Positions 621 through 6,963 of a stretch of DNA of 64,000 nt are shown here, piece after piece. Below the pieces are notes generated by a model, which was not told the origin of the DNA, did not search any database, and saw nothing but the letters and a program-made list of their open reading frames with translations. The stretch lies in assembly GCA_021324115.1 (NCBI GenBank), contig JAJPJS010000024.1, positions 1 to 64,000 on the forward strand. The letters are read 5' to 3'. The DNA is from Nitrososphaerota archaeon (GTDB lineage: Archaea > Thermoproteota > Nitrososphaeria > Conexivisphaerales > DTJL01). Made by a program: the position numbers and the translations under genes. The stretch's first letter is position 1, and every line of letters begins with the position of its first letter.

Positions 621-3488
621 TTGAAAGTAACGATGTCATACAAAAAGGAAATATTACTAGGATTCGCCTTAGCTTTAGTTGCTTACGTGACGCTGTTCAT
701 GGCTGTTGCACCCGTTGCAACATCCGTGCACGCACAGACATCACCATTGTTCAGCATTACACTGCTCGCTCCTACATCGAATGCTGCCCGAAGGCAGTAT
801 GCGGCAATCATTGCTAGTTCGTTCCAGCAGGTTGGTATCGCAGCCACGCCTTTCTTCGTCAACTTTGATCAGTTGGTGGGTAGGTTGTTCTTCACGAATG
901 CCTATTTCTTCAACGGGTCGGTGGACTGGTCCAAGGTGGGGCTTGACTTTGCCCACGGTGGATACGATGCCGGCTTTATCGGCTGGATATCATTCAGCCC
1001 AGCCCCCGATACCAGTTTCACAAACTGGAGGGGAGACTATGCCGACTGGGCTCCGAACGGCAATAACTACTATTTCTACAACAACAGCCAAGCTAACTTC
1101 CTTATGAACCAGATCGAGTCGACTGTGAATCAAACCCTTCAGATAAAGGATATCTATCAGCTGCAGCAAATTATTCAGAATGACTCTCCTGACCCAGTCA
1201 TTTACTACGAGCAGGAAGTGGTCGCTCGCTCCCCCCAGATTCAAGATTATGGTGGGGTGAACACCTACAGTCCATTCTCCTGGCCTGACCCGCAGCATGT
1301 GAGCGGAGTCAGTACGATTAACTTCGCAGAAGCCGGCAACGTCTTTCCAGGCAACACGCTGTGCGGCGCTGTTGTCACTACATCATGTAACTCGTTGTAC
1401 GCTACCTATATCACTAACCCGCTCTACGGGTTCTTGCTTGAATGGAACCCGGTTCAGGGGCAGTTCTATCTGGCCCTGGCCAACTATGTCCATGTTACTC
1501 CTGACGGTCTAACTTGGACAATCAACTTCAAACCTAATAACTGGGCAGACGGTGTACCAGTGACTTCCAACGACTTTGTGTTCGCCTATGAAGCTTCATT
1601 CCTCCCCGGAAGTGGATCTGTCAGCATCGGAACATACAGCTCACAGCTTGGAAACATAGCCAAATTCACATACCTTAACGGCACATCTGTGATAGTGGAC
1701 AACACCAACGGCGCGTCCCCAGTATGGTGGAACGTCACAGCCGTGGATGCTCATACATTCACGGTTTCACTTACTCACCCATATGCATTCTTCAACGAGA
1801 CGTACACGCCCATAGCACCGGTACCCCTGCACTATTTCCAGGGCTTCCCTGTCGACCAGTGGGCTTCCCTTCCATTCTCAACGTGTTCTGGACCTGACAA
1901 GTTCGCGAACGGCACAACAGTGATGGTCAACGGCGCGCCTGTATCTGGTCCGTTCGGTAATGGGCCGTATGTGCTCACAAGCTGTGATACTGCAAACAAC
2001 GTATTCAAGGAAGCGGCTAACCCCAACTACTGGAACGCGAGCGGTCTTCAGTCCATCGGTCAATTTGCTGTTAAGAATTACAACGTACAATGGATAAATG
2101 GTGCTCAGGCGGCTATCGCAGCCTATTCAACTGGTACAGTGAACCAGCTTGATTCAGAGTACGGTCTTGCGCCATTTGCGTCCCAACTTCAGGGAATCGG
2201 CGCAAACATAATTCATGCTCCTGGTGCTCTTGAGCAAGAGATGGGATTCAACCTGTTCAACCCCATCTGGGGAACCGGAACCGGGACCCCACTCGGTCAG
2301 TCTAATCCATCCCAGGCGGCCAATGCCGCTAGGGATGTGAGGCGTGCCATGAGCTACCTGATACCAAGGCAGCAGATCATATCCAATCTTCTCTTGGGTG
2401 CAGCGGCGCCCGGTCTGACGTTGATCAGTCCTGCGAGCGGCATATTCTACGATTCTAACCTACAACCAGACCCCTACAACCCGTACATAGCCAAGCAGTA
2501 CCTTGCCTCCGCAGGGTACAACACTGGTGTTTCACCATTCGAACAAACCAGTACGCCTGTAACCCTGTCGAGCTATAATGTGTGGGGATTCCCAATAGCC
2601 CTGACCGGGACATTCAAGAACCCAGTCACTGGGCTAGCATACAACAACTCCCTTGTCTATCTCCAGACCAGCCCTGACAATTCTACCTGGACCAGCGTTC
2701 AATCCACAACGACTTCCGCCAACGGTAGCTTCACCTTTGATTGGACACCGCCCACGCCTGGAACATGGTATTACAGGTACTACTTCCCAGGTGTGACTGT
2801 ACCTAACTTCGCTCCAAAGACGTTTAGCTTCGAAGGAACCCTAACCAACTCATCAGGTGCACCTATTGACAACATACTTGTCATAATGCAGGTCAGTACC
2901 GACCAGCAGACCTGGACCAACGTTGGAGCTTGGGTAACTGGCTCGCCATTGAGTGACGGTCAGTATCTGTTCGACTGGCTGCCCAACCAACCAGGTGTGT
3001 ACTATTACAGGTACAACATCACCGGCTACTATGTACCTTCATCAGATATTGCGGCCGTGCAAAACCTTTACGGAGAAGCTGCCCCTGGAGACGCCTACAA
3101 CTCACTTATCTCAAGTCACCAGATCTCGCAGGTGATGAGCGCGTCCCTGACCCCGGTTAGCTCCGTCGCATTCTCAAGCGGCAATCAGCTGATCGCCAGT
3201 GGACAACTGCCTGTCGTAGCGCCTCCATCGTTCAGCAACACGTACTCGATAACCACCACCCCACTGTCGACCGCACTTAACTCGGTGCTATCGTCGTACC
3301 CAACATCTTCGCAGCTAAGCCAAGCGGTAAGTGGCCTTGCTACTCAGAGCAGTGTAAGCAATCTACAAACTTCGATAAACTCCCTGCAGGGACAACTCCA
3401 GACAGCAACTTACGTAGGCTACGGAGCGATTGTAATAGCCATCATCTCCATAATAGTAGCGATCCTAGCAGTAACCAGAAAGAAGTAA
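621..3488 (+). CDS. Membrane-anchored ABC solute-binding protein (family 5-like) with swapped lobes and two beta-sandwich domains
   Basis: Probably binds oligopeptides or similar solutes outside the cell for an ABC importer, but no permease or ATPase gene is in the window. A signal peptide (residues about 5-39) is followed at 41-230 by a segment that looks like the C-terminal lobe of SBP_bac_5 proteins (helix SSFQQVGI, then YDAGFIGW, then DPVIYYEQE). The typical N-terminal lobe comes afterwards: DGLTWTINF with NWADGVPVTSNDFVF at about 295-320, GNGPYVLTSC, the RDVRRAMSYLIPRQQI helix, ending at IAKQYLASAGY (about 624-634), which is where the C-lobe normally begins. Two Ig-like repeats follow (about 645-727 and 728-815, each with an YYYRY-type strand), then a Ser/Gln-rich coiled-coil stretch and a C-terminal membrane helix (about 929-951). 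The start is TTG 621 or ATG 633; the TATA position fits either. Confidence 0.85.
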   Translation: MKVTMSYKKEILLGFALALVAYVTLFMAVAPVATSVHAQTSPLFSITLLAPTSNAARRQYAAIIASSFQQVGIAATPFFVNFDQLVGRLFFTNAYFFNGSVDWSKVGLDFAHGGYDAGFIGWISFSPAPDTSFTNWRGDYADWAPNGNNYYFYNNSQANFLMNQIESTVNQTLQIKDIYQLQQIIQNDSPDPVIYYEQEVVARSPQIQDYGGVNTYSPFSWPDPQHVSGVSTINFAEAGNVFPGNTLCGAVVTTSCNSLYATYITNPLYGFLLEWNPVQGQFYLALANYVHVTPDGLTWTINFKPNNWADGVPVTSNDFVFAYEASFLPGSGSVSIGTYSSQLGNIAKFTYLNGTSVIVDNTNGASPVWWNVTAVDAHTFTVSLTHPYAFFNETYTPIAPVPLHYFQGFPVDQWASLPFSTCSGPDKFANGTTVMVNGAPVSGPFGNGPYVLTSCDTANNVFKEAANPNYWNASGLQSIGQFAVKNYNVQWINGAQAAIAAYSTGTVNQLDSEYGLAPFASQLQGIGANIIHAPGALEQEMGFNLFNPIWGTGTGTPLGQSNPSQAANAARDVRRAMSYLIPRQQIISNLLLGAAAPGLTLISPASGIFYDSNLQPDPYNPYIAKQYLASAGYNTGVSPFEQTSTPVTLSSYNVWGFPIALTGTFKNPVTGLAYNNSLVYLQTSPDNSTWTSVQSTTTSANGSFTFDWTPPTPGTWYYRYYFPGVTVPNFAPKTFSFEGTLTNSSGAPIDNILVIMQVSTDQQTWTNVGAWVTGSPLSDGQYLFDWLPNQPGVYYYRYNITGYYVPSSDIAAVQNLYGEAAPGDAYNSLISSHQISQVMSASLTPVSSVAFSSGNQLIASGQLPVVAPPSFSNTYSITTTPLSTALNSVLSSYPTSSQLSQAVSGLATQSSVSNLQTSINSLQGQLQTATYVGYGAIVIAIISIIVAILAVTRKK

Positions 3489-3503
3489 GATTAACATCAT
3501 CAG

Positions 3504-3520
3504 GATTTTTTGTTACTTTT
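3504..3520 (+). terminator. Oligo-T terminator after the solute-binding protein gene
   Basis: Two T-runs (six and four T) lie 16-32 bp after the stop codon, with no strong hairpin. This is the usual form of archaeal intrinsic termination. Confidence 0.5.
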
Positions 3521-3570
3521 GTGATTCAGCGCAAGCTTTGTTTAATTATTGGCAGTTCTAGCTCTTCAAA

Positions 3571-3909
3571 TCATATATTCAATACCAAGAATATCAGAGC
3601 GACTATGACAAACCAGACTCCAGCCAGTATAAACGACGCTCCTTTCTTCTGAGCATCTCTGTGTCTTTGGGCCGAATACGCGCGACCGTCTCTCCAGATC
3701 ATTCTCCTCGCGGCGACGCCCGAGCCCGACTGCCATGCGTCAAGCATCCCCCCAACAATGAAGAGTATTGCCATTTCAAAGAGGGCGAGGTATCCGAATA
3801 CAGTTGTTATTATGGATACTCCCATGAAGATTGCAAGTACCAAAGAAGCAACCATATCAACCGTAGCCAATATGAGGAAATAGACCAGAGATTTTTTGAG
3901 CACCTGCAT
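3571..3909 (-). CDS. Small membrane protein, unknown function
   Basis: A protein of 112 residues if it starts at MQVLKKS (ATG at 3909). The frame stays open upstream to 3999, but the extra 30 residues are polar and would crowd the divergent neighbour at 4002, so I prefer the shorter form. Predicted hydrophobic segments lie near residues 6-27, 28-55 and 90-112, with a basic stretch (ARRMIWRDGR) between the second and third. RDD-like or DUF-type small membrane proteins look similar, but I cannot name a family. It is convergent with the solute-binding protein gene. Confidence 0.55.
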   Translation of the reverse strand: MQVLKKSLVYFLILATVDMVASLVLAIFMGVSIITTVFGYLALFEMAILFIVGGMLDAWQSGSGVAARRMIWRDGRAYSAQRHRDAQKKGASFILAGVWFVIVALIFLVLNI

Positions 3910-4001
3910 GGCTGTTACATACAAATATCCAGCATCCCTGCCGTTATTATGCCCAGCCAGACTCAGATAAATGCTACGAAACGTTTTTTTGGTGCGCAAA
4001 G

Positions 4002-4946
4002 GTGGGGAAATTCAGATTGGCCAACAAAGCAAAGAAACGCTTGGCGGTAACAGTCACCTTTTCCATAGTGTTCGCCGTGCTTTTATTAGGTACGTTTGCA
4101 GTTATATTTTTCAACGGGCCAACAATCTACCACTTTCCCAGCAAATATTCTATACCACTAGCAGATTGGATGGGATTGATACCGCAGCAGGCGACCTCAT
4201 TTGAAGCGATAAATGTGACTGCTGTGAAAGCATCTTCAGTCGCATTCAATCCTGCAGCAGCTTACTTCGTAAATATCCAGCAGACCGGTCAGAGAATCGA
4301 CTTCACGAATACCCAGCTTGTAGCTACATACTATCTACCCACATCAAATCCTCAATCCAATGAAACCGAAATAATCATATTTCAAACACCCACTAATGTA
4401 TACGAACAACTCGAGCAGAGTCTTTCAAATAGTTCAAAAATTCCAAAGCTTACATACGCTGGCTATACTTTGTACTTTATCACAAACAACGATACTCTGA
4501 CAAGGACGGTGGCTCAGGGAGTAATGGTATTCTACAAGGAATTCATTCTTTACACACAGAGTACCCCCTCGCCGGAAGGCTCAATGGAGTCGGCCCTTCA
4601 GCTCCTTATCCAAAGTGGCCAGACTCTTGTGCAGCAGAACGATGTTGTGAGGTCCCTTTATGCGGCGCTGCAGAACAGGTCAAATTACCTGGCGCTGTTT
4701 TACCAAGGTCATCTGACGCAAATACCGAATTCGATTGGTGGCGCCAAATCCGTCCAGGTCTTAAATGATCACATAATAGGCACCTATGCATTCGAATTCA
4801 GCAACCTGAGTGCAGCGAAGGGTGAATACAAGACCGTGACTTTCACATATTCAAATGCTACGAGTGCATATATTCTGGATAACTACGTAGTGACCACCCT
4901 GATATTCTCTCCGCAGGCGGCAGGGGCCGAACTGCAGGGATTCTGA
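4002..4946 (+). CDS. Surface protein with N-terminal membrane anchor, unknown function
   Basis: 314 residues from a GTG start. A basic N-terminus (KFRLANKAKKR) precedes one hydrophobic segment at about 14-37. The rest is predicted extracellular, rich in Ser, Thr, Asn and Gln with many N-x-S/T sequons (for example in SQSLSNSSK and NRSNY), so it is probably an anchored, glycosylated surface protein. No enzymatic motif is visible. The next gene follows 28 bp after its stop in the same direction and also encodes an anchored surface protein, so the two may work together. Confidence 0.65.
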   Translation: MGKFRLANKAKKRLAVTVTFSIVFAVLLLGTFAVIFFNGPTIYHFPSKYSIPLADWMGLIPQQATSFEAINVTAVKASSVAFNPAAAYFVNIQQTGQRIDFTNTQLVATYYLPTSNPQSNETEIIIFQTPTNVYEQLEQSLSNSSKIPKLTYAGYTLYFITNNDTLTRTVAQGVMVFYKEFILYTQSTPSPEGSMESALQLLIQSGQTLVQQNDVVRSLYAALQNRSNYLALFYQGHLTQIPNSIGGAKSVQVLNDHIIGTYAFEFSNLSAAKGEYKTVTFTYSNATSAYILDNYVVTTLIFSPQAAGAELQGF

Positions 4947-4974
4947 GTTTGAACAGGCGAGACTTGGATCTAAC

Positions 4975-5556
4975 TTGGCCTCAAAGCTACCTTGGCTGAC
5001 CATGTTCTCGATAGCTGGTATATTGATAGCGGCAGCGATAATAGGACCAAGCCTTTACGTCCCCAGCTCGATATCCGAGAGCGGGCCTCACATATTTAAC
5101 GCGCAGAATCCGCCTTATTGGGTGGATACGTTCGCTATTCCTCCGGTCCGTGCAGGCACCGTGATTCATATCGTGGCGTCCGAGCATGGGCCCGGCAATG
5201 TCACAATCGTGTTGGAAAGCGAAAAGTATCCTGGCCAGCCACTTCCCAACGTCATCTCTTACTATCTTACGAATAAAACCAGCTCCATCGACGTAAAGGT
5301 CCCGTTAGAGGAGTCGTCTATCTACGACGTATACGTGATATCATACCATGCTACATACACTATCCAGATATCCGGCGTATGGGCAGAGTTCTATTCCGCT
5401 GAACTTGGATTGTACTGGGGCATTGTGGCAGCGATCGCCGGCACTGCCATGTACTTTTATTACAGGGGGTCGAAGTCAAGGGATCAAATATACGAGCAGA
5501 CATTGGCTGAAATAAGGAAGAAGGAAGAAGAAAAGAGGAAAGCATCCAATAAATGA
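4975..5556 (+). CDS. Membrane protein with extracellular beta domain and cytoplasmic charged tail
   Basis: 193 residues from a TTG start. A hydrophobic segment at about 9-30 and a second at about 148-165 bracket an outside domain of roughly 115 residues that looks beta-rich (strands such as GTVIHIVAS, NVTIVLES, YTIQISG). The C-terminal 25 residues are strongly charged (EIRKKEEEKRKASNK), typical of a cytoplasmic tail. No family is recognised. It is likely in one transcription unit with the preceding anchored surface protein. Confidence 0.65.
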   Translation: MASKLPWLTMFSIAGILIAAAIIGPSLYVPSSISESGPHIFNAQNPPYWVDTFAIPPVRAGTVIHIVASEHGPGNVTIVLESEKYPGQPLPNVISYYLTNKTSSIDVKVPLEESSIYDVYVISYHATYTIQISGVWAEFYSAELGLYWGIVAAIAGTAMYFYYRGSKSRDQIYEQTLAEIRKKEEEKRKASNK

Positions 5557-5898
5557 AGATCGCTGATCATCCGTATCCTCCACAGAGATTTCTGGACAAA
5601 TTCAGGCTCATGAAAACACCGAATTCTGGTTAATGATGGAAAGCGAATCACACCTTCTAATTACCCGGCCCAGGCTCTCTTTCAAGACAAGCGTTGTATC
5701 AGAATCGTCACCTTTTGACGAAATGATATTACTTGACATATTCAAAAGATGGTTGCATAAGGTACAAACGAGTCCTGCGAATCAGAAGGGTGATCCAGAT
5801 CCTTGTTCGGACAGCACTCTGCCTTTACAGGATTGATTCGCGTGCCCGCTAAACACAATAAGGCAATACCATGTACCCATTGCAGTCCTGAATTCCAG
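5557..5898 (+). other. Intergenic stretch without a recognised gene
   Basis: About 340 bases between a membrane protein gene and the glycosyltransferase gene. The glycosyltransferase frame is open back to a TTG at 5803, but those 32 codons do not resemble the family. Another short frame (5633-5836) shows no recognisable feature. I see no tRNA or clear hairpin here. Confidence 0.4.
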
Positions 5899-6963
5899 AT
5901 GACGCAACAACTGAAGGGCTTAAGGGTCGTGTACGTTACCACAGAACCAACGAATCAGCCCAGGCTACGCAAAATCGGCAAGTCACTTTCAAAGTTTGGA
6001 GCTGATTTTGTAGTTTTCAGACCAACTTACCCTGCAGTCATCAGGAATCGCACGCTCAGGGCGCTGATCAAGTACATATTCTTTCTACTTCAGGCTGCCA
6101 CGGTAAACGCCGATGTAGTATGGGTATCAAACTGTCCAGACATAACTGCTCTTCCGTTCGCATTGACGGGACGAAGATATGTGTATGACTTCAGATCACC
6201 ATGGTCTAAAGAACTTGCAATAGAATATGGCAGGGGTCTATTTTTCAGGCTAAGTGAAATAATTGAAAAGACTGCGAGACGATATGCATCAGTACTGGTA
6301 GTGGTTTCGAGGCGCATGGTACGTGATGTCTCAAGCTTGGGGACTCCCGTATTCGTTGTACCTAACTATCCACTTGGGAATTTTTCGGCCAGGGGAGATA
6401 AGCAGACGATAAGAAAGGGCATGGGTGTATCTGATCAAGCGAAAATTGCAATTTTTGTGGGAAGACTAACCAAGATAGAGGGCGCAGACCTTCTTGAAGA
6501 TGTCGCCAGAGCACTTTCAAGCGTGCCTGAAGCCAGACTCTGGGTGGTGGGAGACGGGCCTCTCGGATTGGACATCAAGAAACTCGAGCTGAAGTACCCA
6601 TCCACGGTAAGATACTTCGGATGGGTGCCCCATCACGAAGTTCCAGATCTGATCGTCGCATCAGATGTTTCAATAATGCCTAGACACAGGAATCCCAATG
6701 CCGATTACTACAGCGAAGAAGGAGTTCACAAGATATCGGAAAGCATATGGCTTGGAACCCCTGTCATCGCATGCAACGTTGCTGAATCATCTTACTACAC
6801 ATCTACCGTTGAATCCAGATTTGTGCAGGAAGTCGTCTCCTTTCTGACCAGGGGGTCACGACCTGCTTTAAGAATCCCTTCTTGGGAAGATGTGAGCGAG
6901 CCCGTCCTCGTAAATGCGGTGCTTGCTGCTGCGGGTCGGAGGAAGTCCCAATATGAGCACTGA
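5899..6963 (+). CDS. Glycosyltransferase, GT4-like (GT-B fold)
   Basis: Transfers a sugar from a nucleotide donor during assembly of a surface glycan or glycolipid; the acceptor is unknown. The N-terminal Rossmann half begins at LRVVYVTTEP. The donor-binding half carries IFVGRLTKIEGADLLEDVA (about 195-215) and WVVGDGPL, followed by a GT4-like EEGVHKISESIWLGTPVIA motif in which glutamates contact the donor. I take the ATG at 5899 as the start because the sugar-binding fold begins right after it; the frame remains open upstream to a TTG at 5803. It overlaps the next glycosyltransferase gene by 11 bp, so the two are probably translated together. Confidence 0.82.
   Translation: MTQQLKGLRVVYVTTEPTNQPRLRKIGKSLSKFGADFVVFRPTYPAVIRNRTLRALIKYIFFLLQAATVNADVVWVSNCPDITALPFALTGRRYVYDFRSPWSKELAIEYGRGLFFRLSEIIEKTARRYASVLVVVSRRMVRDVSSLGTPVFVVPNYPLGNFSARGDKQTIRKGMGVSDQAKIAIFVGRLTKIEGADLLEDVARALSSVPEARLWVVGDGPLGLDIKKLELKYPSTVRYFGWVPHHEVPDLIVASDVSIMPRHRNPNADYYSEEGVHKISESIWLGTPVIACNVAESSYYTSTVESRFVQEVVSFLTRGSRPALRIPSWEDVSEPVLVNAVLAAAGRRKSQYEH

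Follow-up and report, generated by a model that had tools for sequence, protein, structure and literature searches.

The locus considered here raises the question of whether a chain whose binding-protein segments stand in an unusual order is a genuine and functional solute-binding protein, and, if so, how it came to be rearranged. It lies near the start of the window, i.e. the whole stretch of 64,000 nucleotides that was analysed, from a Nitrososphaerota archaeon, where the forward frame 621-3488 is a real gene coding for 955 residues, probably starting at ATG 633 (MSYKKEI...; relatives open with MSPKKEI). The protein scores 142.1 bits against PF00496 (SBP_bac_5), for which the curated cut-off is 32.4, and so belongs to the family by score. 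It lacks the colinear order of the family, the matched pieces being swapped, with profile positions 288-363 found at nucleotides 750-1037, upstream of positions 3-283 at residues 283-638; the protein is thus a permuted variant of SBP_bac_5 and not a canonical member. If the canonical order is written A-B-C, the protein reads C-A-B; behind these segments come two Ig-like repeats, a linker and, at the C terminus, a membrane helix (Table 1).

Table 1. Features of the permuted binder and its companion genes (window coordinates), and loci encoding binders of the B-C-A order
Feature	Position	Strand	Basis or remark
Signal peptide, ends ...ATSVHAQ	633..737, aa 5-39	+	Hydrophobic aa ~9 to 37; relatives share N terminus MSPKKEI...; predicted cleavage site
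Segment C (canonical C-terminal third), now first	750..1253, aa 44-211	+	PF00496 288-363; canonical HMM 365-511 at aa 44-207; AppA 358-507 (start of query)
Linker of ~24 aa between ancestral C and N termini	1254..1325, aa 212-235	+	Gap between canonical HMM 515 and 45
Segments A+B (canonical N-terminal two thirds), end AKQYLASAGY	1326..2534, aa 236-638	+	PF00496 3-283; canonical HMM 77-257 at aa 268-508 and 301-365 at aa 571-637; AppA 46-112 (middle of query) and 281-344 (end)
Ig-like repeat 1	2556..2813, aa ~646-731	+	Weak CarboxypepD_reg match (24.5 bits, under the cut-off of 32.3); 42% identity to repeat 2 over 69 columns
Ig-like repeat 2	2826..3038, aa ~736-806	+	Closest relatives have one repeat only and lack repeat 2 (alignment)
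S/T/Q-rich linker, likely coiled coil	3039..3395, aa 807-925	+	Judged from composition and alignment
C-terminal membrane helix, positive tail (...RKK)	3396..3473, aa 926-951	+	Kyte-Doolittle mean up to 2.75
Companion gene, 314 aa, N-anchored	4002..4946	+	No Pfam family above cut-off
Second companion gene, 193 aa, membrane-associated	4975..5556	+	No Pfam family; similar gene follows in G001
B-C-A binders	L030:7279-9924, L039:1621-4002, L096-L105; ammonia-oxidiser proteins L032-L036, L048

Nine canonical archaeal proteins were used to build a separate HMM, which places the segments in the same swapped order, as does alignment of a profile of the family with Bacillus subtilis AppA (PDB 1XOC). All 40 canonical-order controls were colinear with the HMM, so the swap is not an artefact of the method, and a paralogue in the same genome has the canonical order. 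A preliminary description of this DNA had placed the second half of an SBP_bac_5 protein before the first and had read this as a circular permutation; the Pfam profile, the separate HMM and the AppA alignment bear out the first point and, together with the more than 35 homologues that share the order and the break, support the second. The two Ig-like repeats and the C-terminal membrane helix that it described have likewise held. Its account of the lobes was right as to the swap but not as to where the chain was opened, because the break falls in the loop that follows the AGY helix (AppA ~345-357), which, with the lobe limits that we assume for OppA and DppA, lies inside the second lobe and not at the lobe boundary. 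Hence one lobe is split between both ends of the chain, as opposed to whole lobes having been exchanged.

A search for homologues with the same domain order, which the preliminary description had proposed, reveals that the C-A-B order, the break and the short C-to-A linker recur in more than 35 proteins from many Thermoproteota families, Halobacteria and Alphaproteobacteria. The break is near-constant, with C starting at HMM ~362-368 and B ending at ~359-366 in nearly all of them, and the linker is 14-26 residues long in nearly all homologues. In two genomes of the same family a counterpart with the same order is ~50% identical, and more distant members occur in other families of the class; among the named hosts are a Nitrososphaeria MAG, 'archaeon 13_2', a groundwater Thaumarchaeota MAG, a Bathyarchaeota chromosome and Marsarchaeota G2. 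With the segment order confirmed by HMM, a C-A-B protein is present in at least 27 of 398 sampled genomes of the phylum. A scan of genome contigs with a single sequence gave no match; an alignment-based scan gave six loci. A query spanning the junction recovered plasmid-borne C-A-B proteins in Alphaproteobacteria (Salipiger, Neorhizobium, Nitratireductor, Roseomonas and Maritalea) and in Halobacteria (Halalkalicoccus, Halobaculum, Natrononativus and Halostagnicola), annotated simply as substrate-binding proteins (L148:4698-6437, L149:4671-6425, L150-L156). The Salipiger and Neorhizobium genes adjoin those for LLM-class flavin oxidoreductases or nitrilotriacetate monooxygenases, possibly a hint to the ligand. 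One archaeal C-A-B protein (L106:712-2472, genome G518) ends 20 residues past the break, has no membrane helix and groups with the bacterial and haloarchaeal permutants. Three further proteins with an N-terminal extension of ~270 residues (L043:3393-5990, L044:2891-5497 and L050:3012-5633) were considered as a third rotation and rejected, since the canonical order follows the extension, which by eye consists of PKD/Ig-like repeats.

The breadth of these relatives bears on two other readings of the locus. That the order results from misassembly, a frameshift or a decaying pseudogene might be suspected of a gene 620 bases from a contig end, but the 955-residue frame is open and the same order is repeated in independent assemblies, complete chromosomes and finished plasmids, and in an operon context; the homologues refute this reading, to which we attach next to no probability. 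A chimera, in which the N-terminal segment was acquired from another binder and forms a domain of its own before a truncated binding protein, is also improbable. It would have to account for an identical break and complementary halves, with neither overlap nor loss, in more than 35 proteins, and A-B alone would be without most of the second lobe. The smallest C-A-B members, of 579-584 residues, among them Salipiger WP_066111853.1 with 579, hold little beyond a signal peptide and C-A-B, and two bacterial chains stop two or three residues past the AGY motif, e.g. Salipiger ...MTKAGYVY. Moreover, distances for segment C and for A+B correlate at 0.97 (r = 0.966 over 32 proteins of the main clade; at most 0.32 in 2000 shuffles), which means that the halves travelled together and speaks against a recent chimera.

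What a chimera has in its favour comes from modelling. The preliminary description had suggested an AlphaFold model of the binder portion and its comparison with known structures. An AlphaFold2 model of residues 40-640 (six sequences) was of moderate quality (pLDDT 64.5, pTM 0.62; 46-54 for the other four models), with low confidence between model residues 51 and 115, so that its packing of the N-terminal segment is tentative. The best Foldseek matches were AppA, AapF, NikA and OppA, with E values from 5e-11, and the listed top ones were all family-5 binders; the alignments were sequential, with low TM scores, none above 0.48, and the best gave 0.41 by query and 0.48 by target at an rmsd of ~8 Å. 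The model and the Foldseek matches thus agree with a family-5 fold but do not, taken alone, establish that the second lobe is completed by C. A model of the L055 protein was too poor for use (pTM 0.48).

The gene neighbourhood suggests what the permuted binder may do. Genes for oppB and oppC, usually with oppD and oppF, adjoin the C-A-B binder gene in the relatives whose context was read (L024, L026-L028, L053-L056, L059, L148 and L150-L153). In the genome of the window, oppB-C-D-F, with OppC_N and oligo_HPY domains, lie at the very end of another contig (C16, locus L058), which is closed by a small reverse gene; in relatives the same gene sits between oppF and the binder. The contig of the window (C3) begins where the opp cluster would continue, so that the operon appears to run off the end of C16 and to resume at the start of C3, a join that synteny with genomes G001 and G002 predicts. 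Opp/Dpp-type permeases and ATPases thus accompany the binder in its relatives and, across a contig break, in its own genome. Genes resembling the first companion gene follow the binder in G001 and G002, and also at L053 and L054, judging by position and by N-terminal similarity seen by eye. On C16 (28000-36088), genes for SDR, PTPS/QueD, QueC and FolE2 (a preQ0-type pathway) run directly into oppB-C-D-F, and in G001 genes like this set are divergent from oppB. By eye, D-aminoacylase-like amidohydrolase genes lie directly upstream of two C-A-B operons (L026:1410-2993 and L028:7356-8939).

This synteny weighs on the proposal that the fold is correctly permuted but that the protein serves in sensing or surface binding and not in import. 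Rotated binders of the second type, described below, have no permease gene beside them in the stretch read in ammonia oxidisers G025, G161 and G061, but the window's own family adjoins oppBCDF genes, and we consider such a role unlikely. As judged from sequence and gene context, the window protein is most likely functional, serving an Opp-type importer as its membrane-tethered binder. It is very probable, in our assessment, that the explanation as a whole is correct, i.e. that the protein is a natural, circularly permuted C-A-B binder of the SBP_bac_5 (cluster C, OppA/DppA) type that is exported, tethered and serves an Opp-type importer. The short linker would bridge the ancestral termini, with new ones created in the second lobe, in the loop that follows its AGY helix; the rotated chain would still fold into the usual two-lobed clam-shell. 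The signal peptide would direct its export, the stalk of Ig-like repeats and the membrane helix, both added where the chain was newly opened, would keep it tethered, and its ligand, in this family a peptide, nickel complex or sugar, would be handed to the OppBCDF-type importer encoded alongside. On the domain limits that we assume for DppA/OppA, the C-A-B break would fall in domain III, whereas the canonical termini belong to domain I; we hypothesize that the stalk therefore exits from a different lobe than that holding the canonical termini.

A second rotation occurs in the same family. The binder of genome G005 and a set of other Thermoproteota proteins read B-C-A (Table 1). They are like the window protein in being rotated SBP_bac_5 proteins in which C is fused to A and which usually end in a membrane helix, but their break lies after the GxGPY...NPxYW region (HMM ~227-231, i.e. 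~230), whereas that of the window protein follows AGY (HMM ~363). Of 200 genomes sampled from the class, at least 72 have a PF00496 match confined to positions ~130-365 in a long frame. Nine genomes (G025, G161, G061, G136, G079, G069, G092, G022 and G066) carry archaeal amoA and are therefore ammonia oxidisers. In the amoA genomes searched, the B-C-A profile matches at near full length once per genome, the G069 copy reading through two stop codons, and most have one PF00496 match only, among the matches listed; the B-C-A form is thus the only family-5 binder found in most of the ammonia-oxidising archaea examined. The direct HMM match to segment A in these proteins is weak. A profile of the ammonia-oxidiser proteins aligns with that of the B-C-A family at 95% probability (E 3e-8), with the first half of A and part of C, including its end, in the same alignment, as against 10% with the canonical profile, and an ending ...SNGPFYL... 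is seen by eye; the case for segment A being present in these binders is fair but not strong. Two other family-5 matches (L147, i.e. G118:C104:26051-28006, and G168:C1:986977-988467) lie inside open frames of 2102 and 2456 residues, possibly large fusion proteins.

The permutation is most likely ancient and recurrent. In a tree (LG+C20) for which the permuted sequences were re-ordered to A-B-C, the main C-A-B group, which includes the window protein, forms one clade (support 100/100), and a second, small C-A-B group (G045, G041/G047 and G397) is sister to B-C-A (100/98). A single origin of all C-A-B proteins was rejected by the AU test (p = 0.003 without L106 and 0.014 with it), as was, without L106, a single origin of all permuted forms (p = 0.009), these p values being optimistic since the groups were chosen after the tree had been seen. 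When bacterial and haloarchaeal sequences were added, three C-A-B groups were recovered, two of them with Alphaproteobacteria. The trees indicate more than one rearrangement, and the placement of Alphaproteobacteria within two groups suggests transfer. The simplest route to a rotated gene would be for the gene to duplicate, for the copies to fuse in frame and for the outer parts then to be lost. An Opitutaceae contig (L057) has tandem canonical family-5 binder genes (3188-4801 and 4782-6380) with a 20-base overlap, a layout of the sort that could yield a fused permutant.

A C-terminal helix is present in 33 of 38 C-A-B proteins (including those of L024, L025 and L053-L056), in 21 of 23 B-C-A proteins and in 11 of 40 canonical ones, some exceptions being fragments cut by the end of the locus. 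We considered, and set aside, the idea that permutation causes the helix to be acquired, because the two are inseparable from ancestry, with two or three independent contrasts only, and because the bacterial C-A-B proteins have no C-terminal membrane helix. The broadest reading combines repeated permutation of the cluster C fold at two loops (C-A-B and B-C-A), spread over archaea and Alphaproteobacteria, a role as the sole family-5 binder of most ammonia-oxidising archaea, a displaced archaeal tether and altered docking to the importer; taken jointly, we give these elements an even chance.

Natural circular permutants are rare and are usually found structure by structure. That a large and routinely annotated family holds two kinds of rotation, each with many intact descendants, provides a natural test of whether binding proteins depend on chain order to fold, to be exported and to dock. 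It also exposes a weakness of annotation, in that a single colinear profile misreads permuted binders by scoring their halves separately and recognizes only the first half of the ammonia-oxidiser proteins. The permuted sites may be useful as natural guides for biosensor engineering, in which binders are permuted artificially.

Circular permutation of an SBP_bac_5 binder is thus real and widespread and, apparently, undescribed. The preliminary description knew of no account of it in the family, and our search of the open-access literature (most subscription papers lay outside it) likewise found no report for family 5. Nor was a solved permuted member found among the PDB chains matched by the bacterial C-A-B queries, which appear canonical: 1XOC by alignment, and the others in that their best stretch begins at query position ~186 or later and maps to the start of the chain. 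The window protein shares with AppA, OppA, DppA and NikA (family 5, PF00496, cluster C) the three segments with their motifs (DG..T..D..F, GxGPY, VRxA.....R..I and LAxAGY) and the oppBCDF partner genes, but differs from them in reading C-A-B and not A-B-C, in having its chain ends in the second lobe and in carrying an Ig-like stalk and C-terminal helix at the new break. Outside family 5 a precedent exists in TpMglB-2 (Tp0684) of Treponema pallidum, a binding protein from a different cluster that is also circularly permuted; the 2016 study that solved its structure proposed a 'Cluster Bc' for it and its relatives and suggested that permutation may be linked with membrane tethering (PMC4990184). 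The sequence and fold matches examined for the window protein are to family 5/cluster C and not to the cluster B (type I) fold that membership of Cluster Bc entails. TpMglB-2 is a glucose binder of cluster B, a different fold class, with a different break, and is a bacterial lipoprotein (PMC4990184). Nevertheless, both are natural circularly permuted ABC-type binders, and TpMglB-2 still binds its ligand and changes conformation (PMC4990184).
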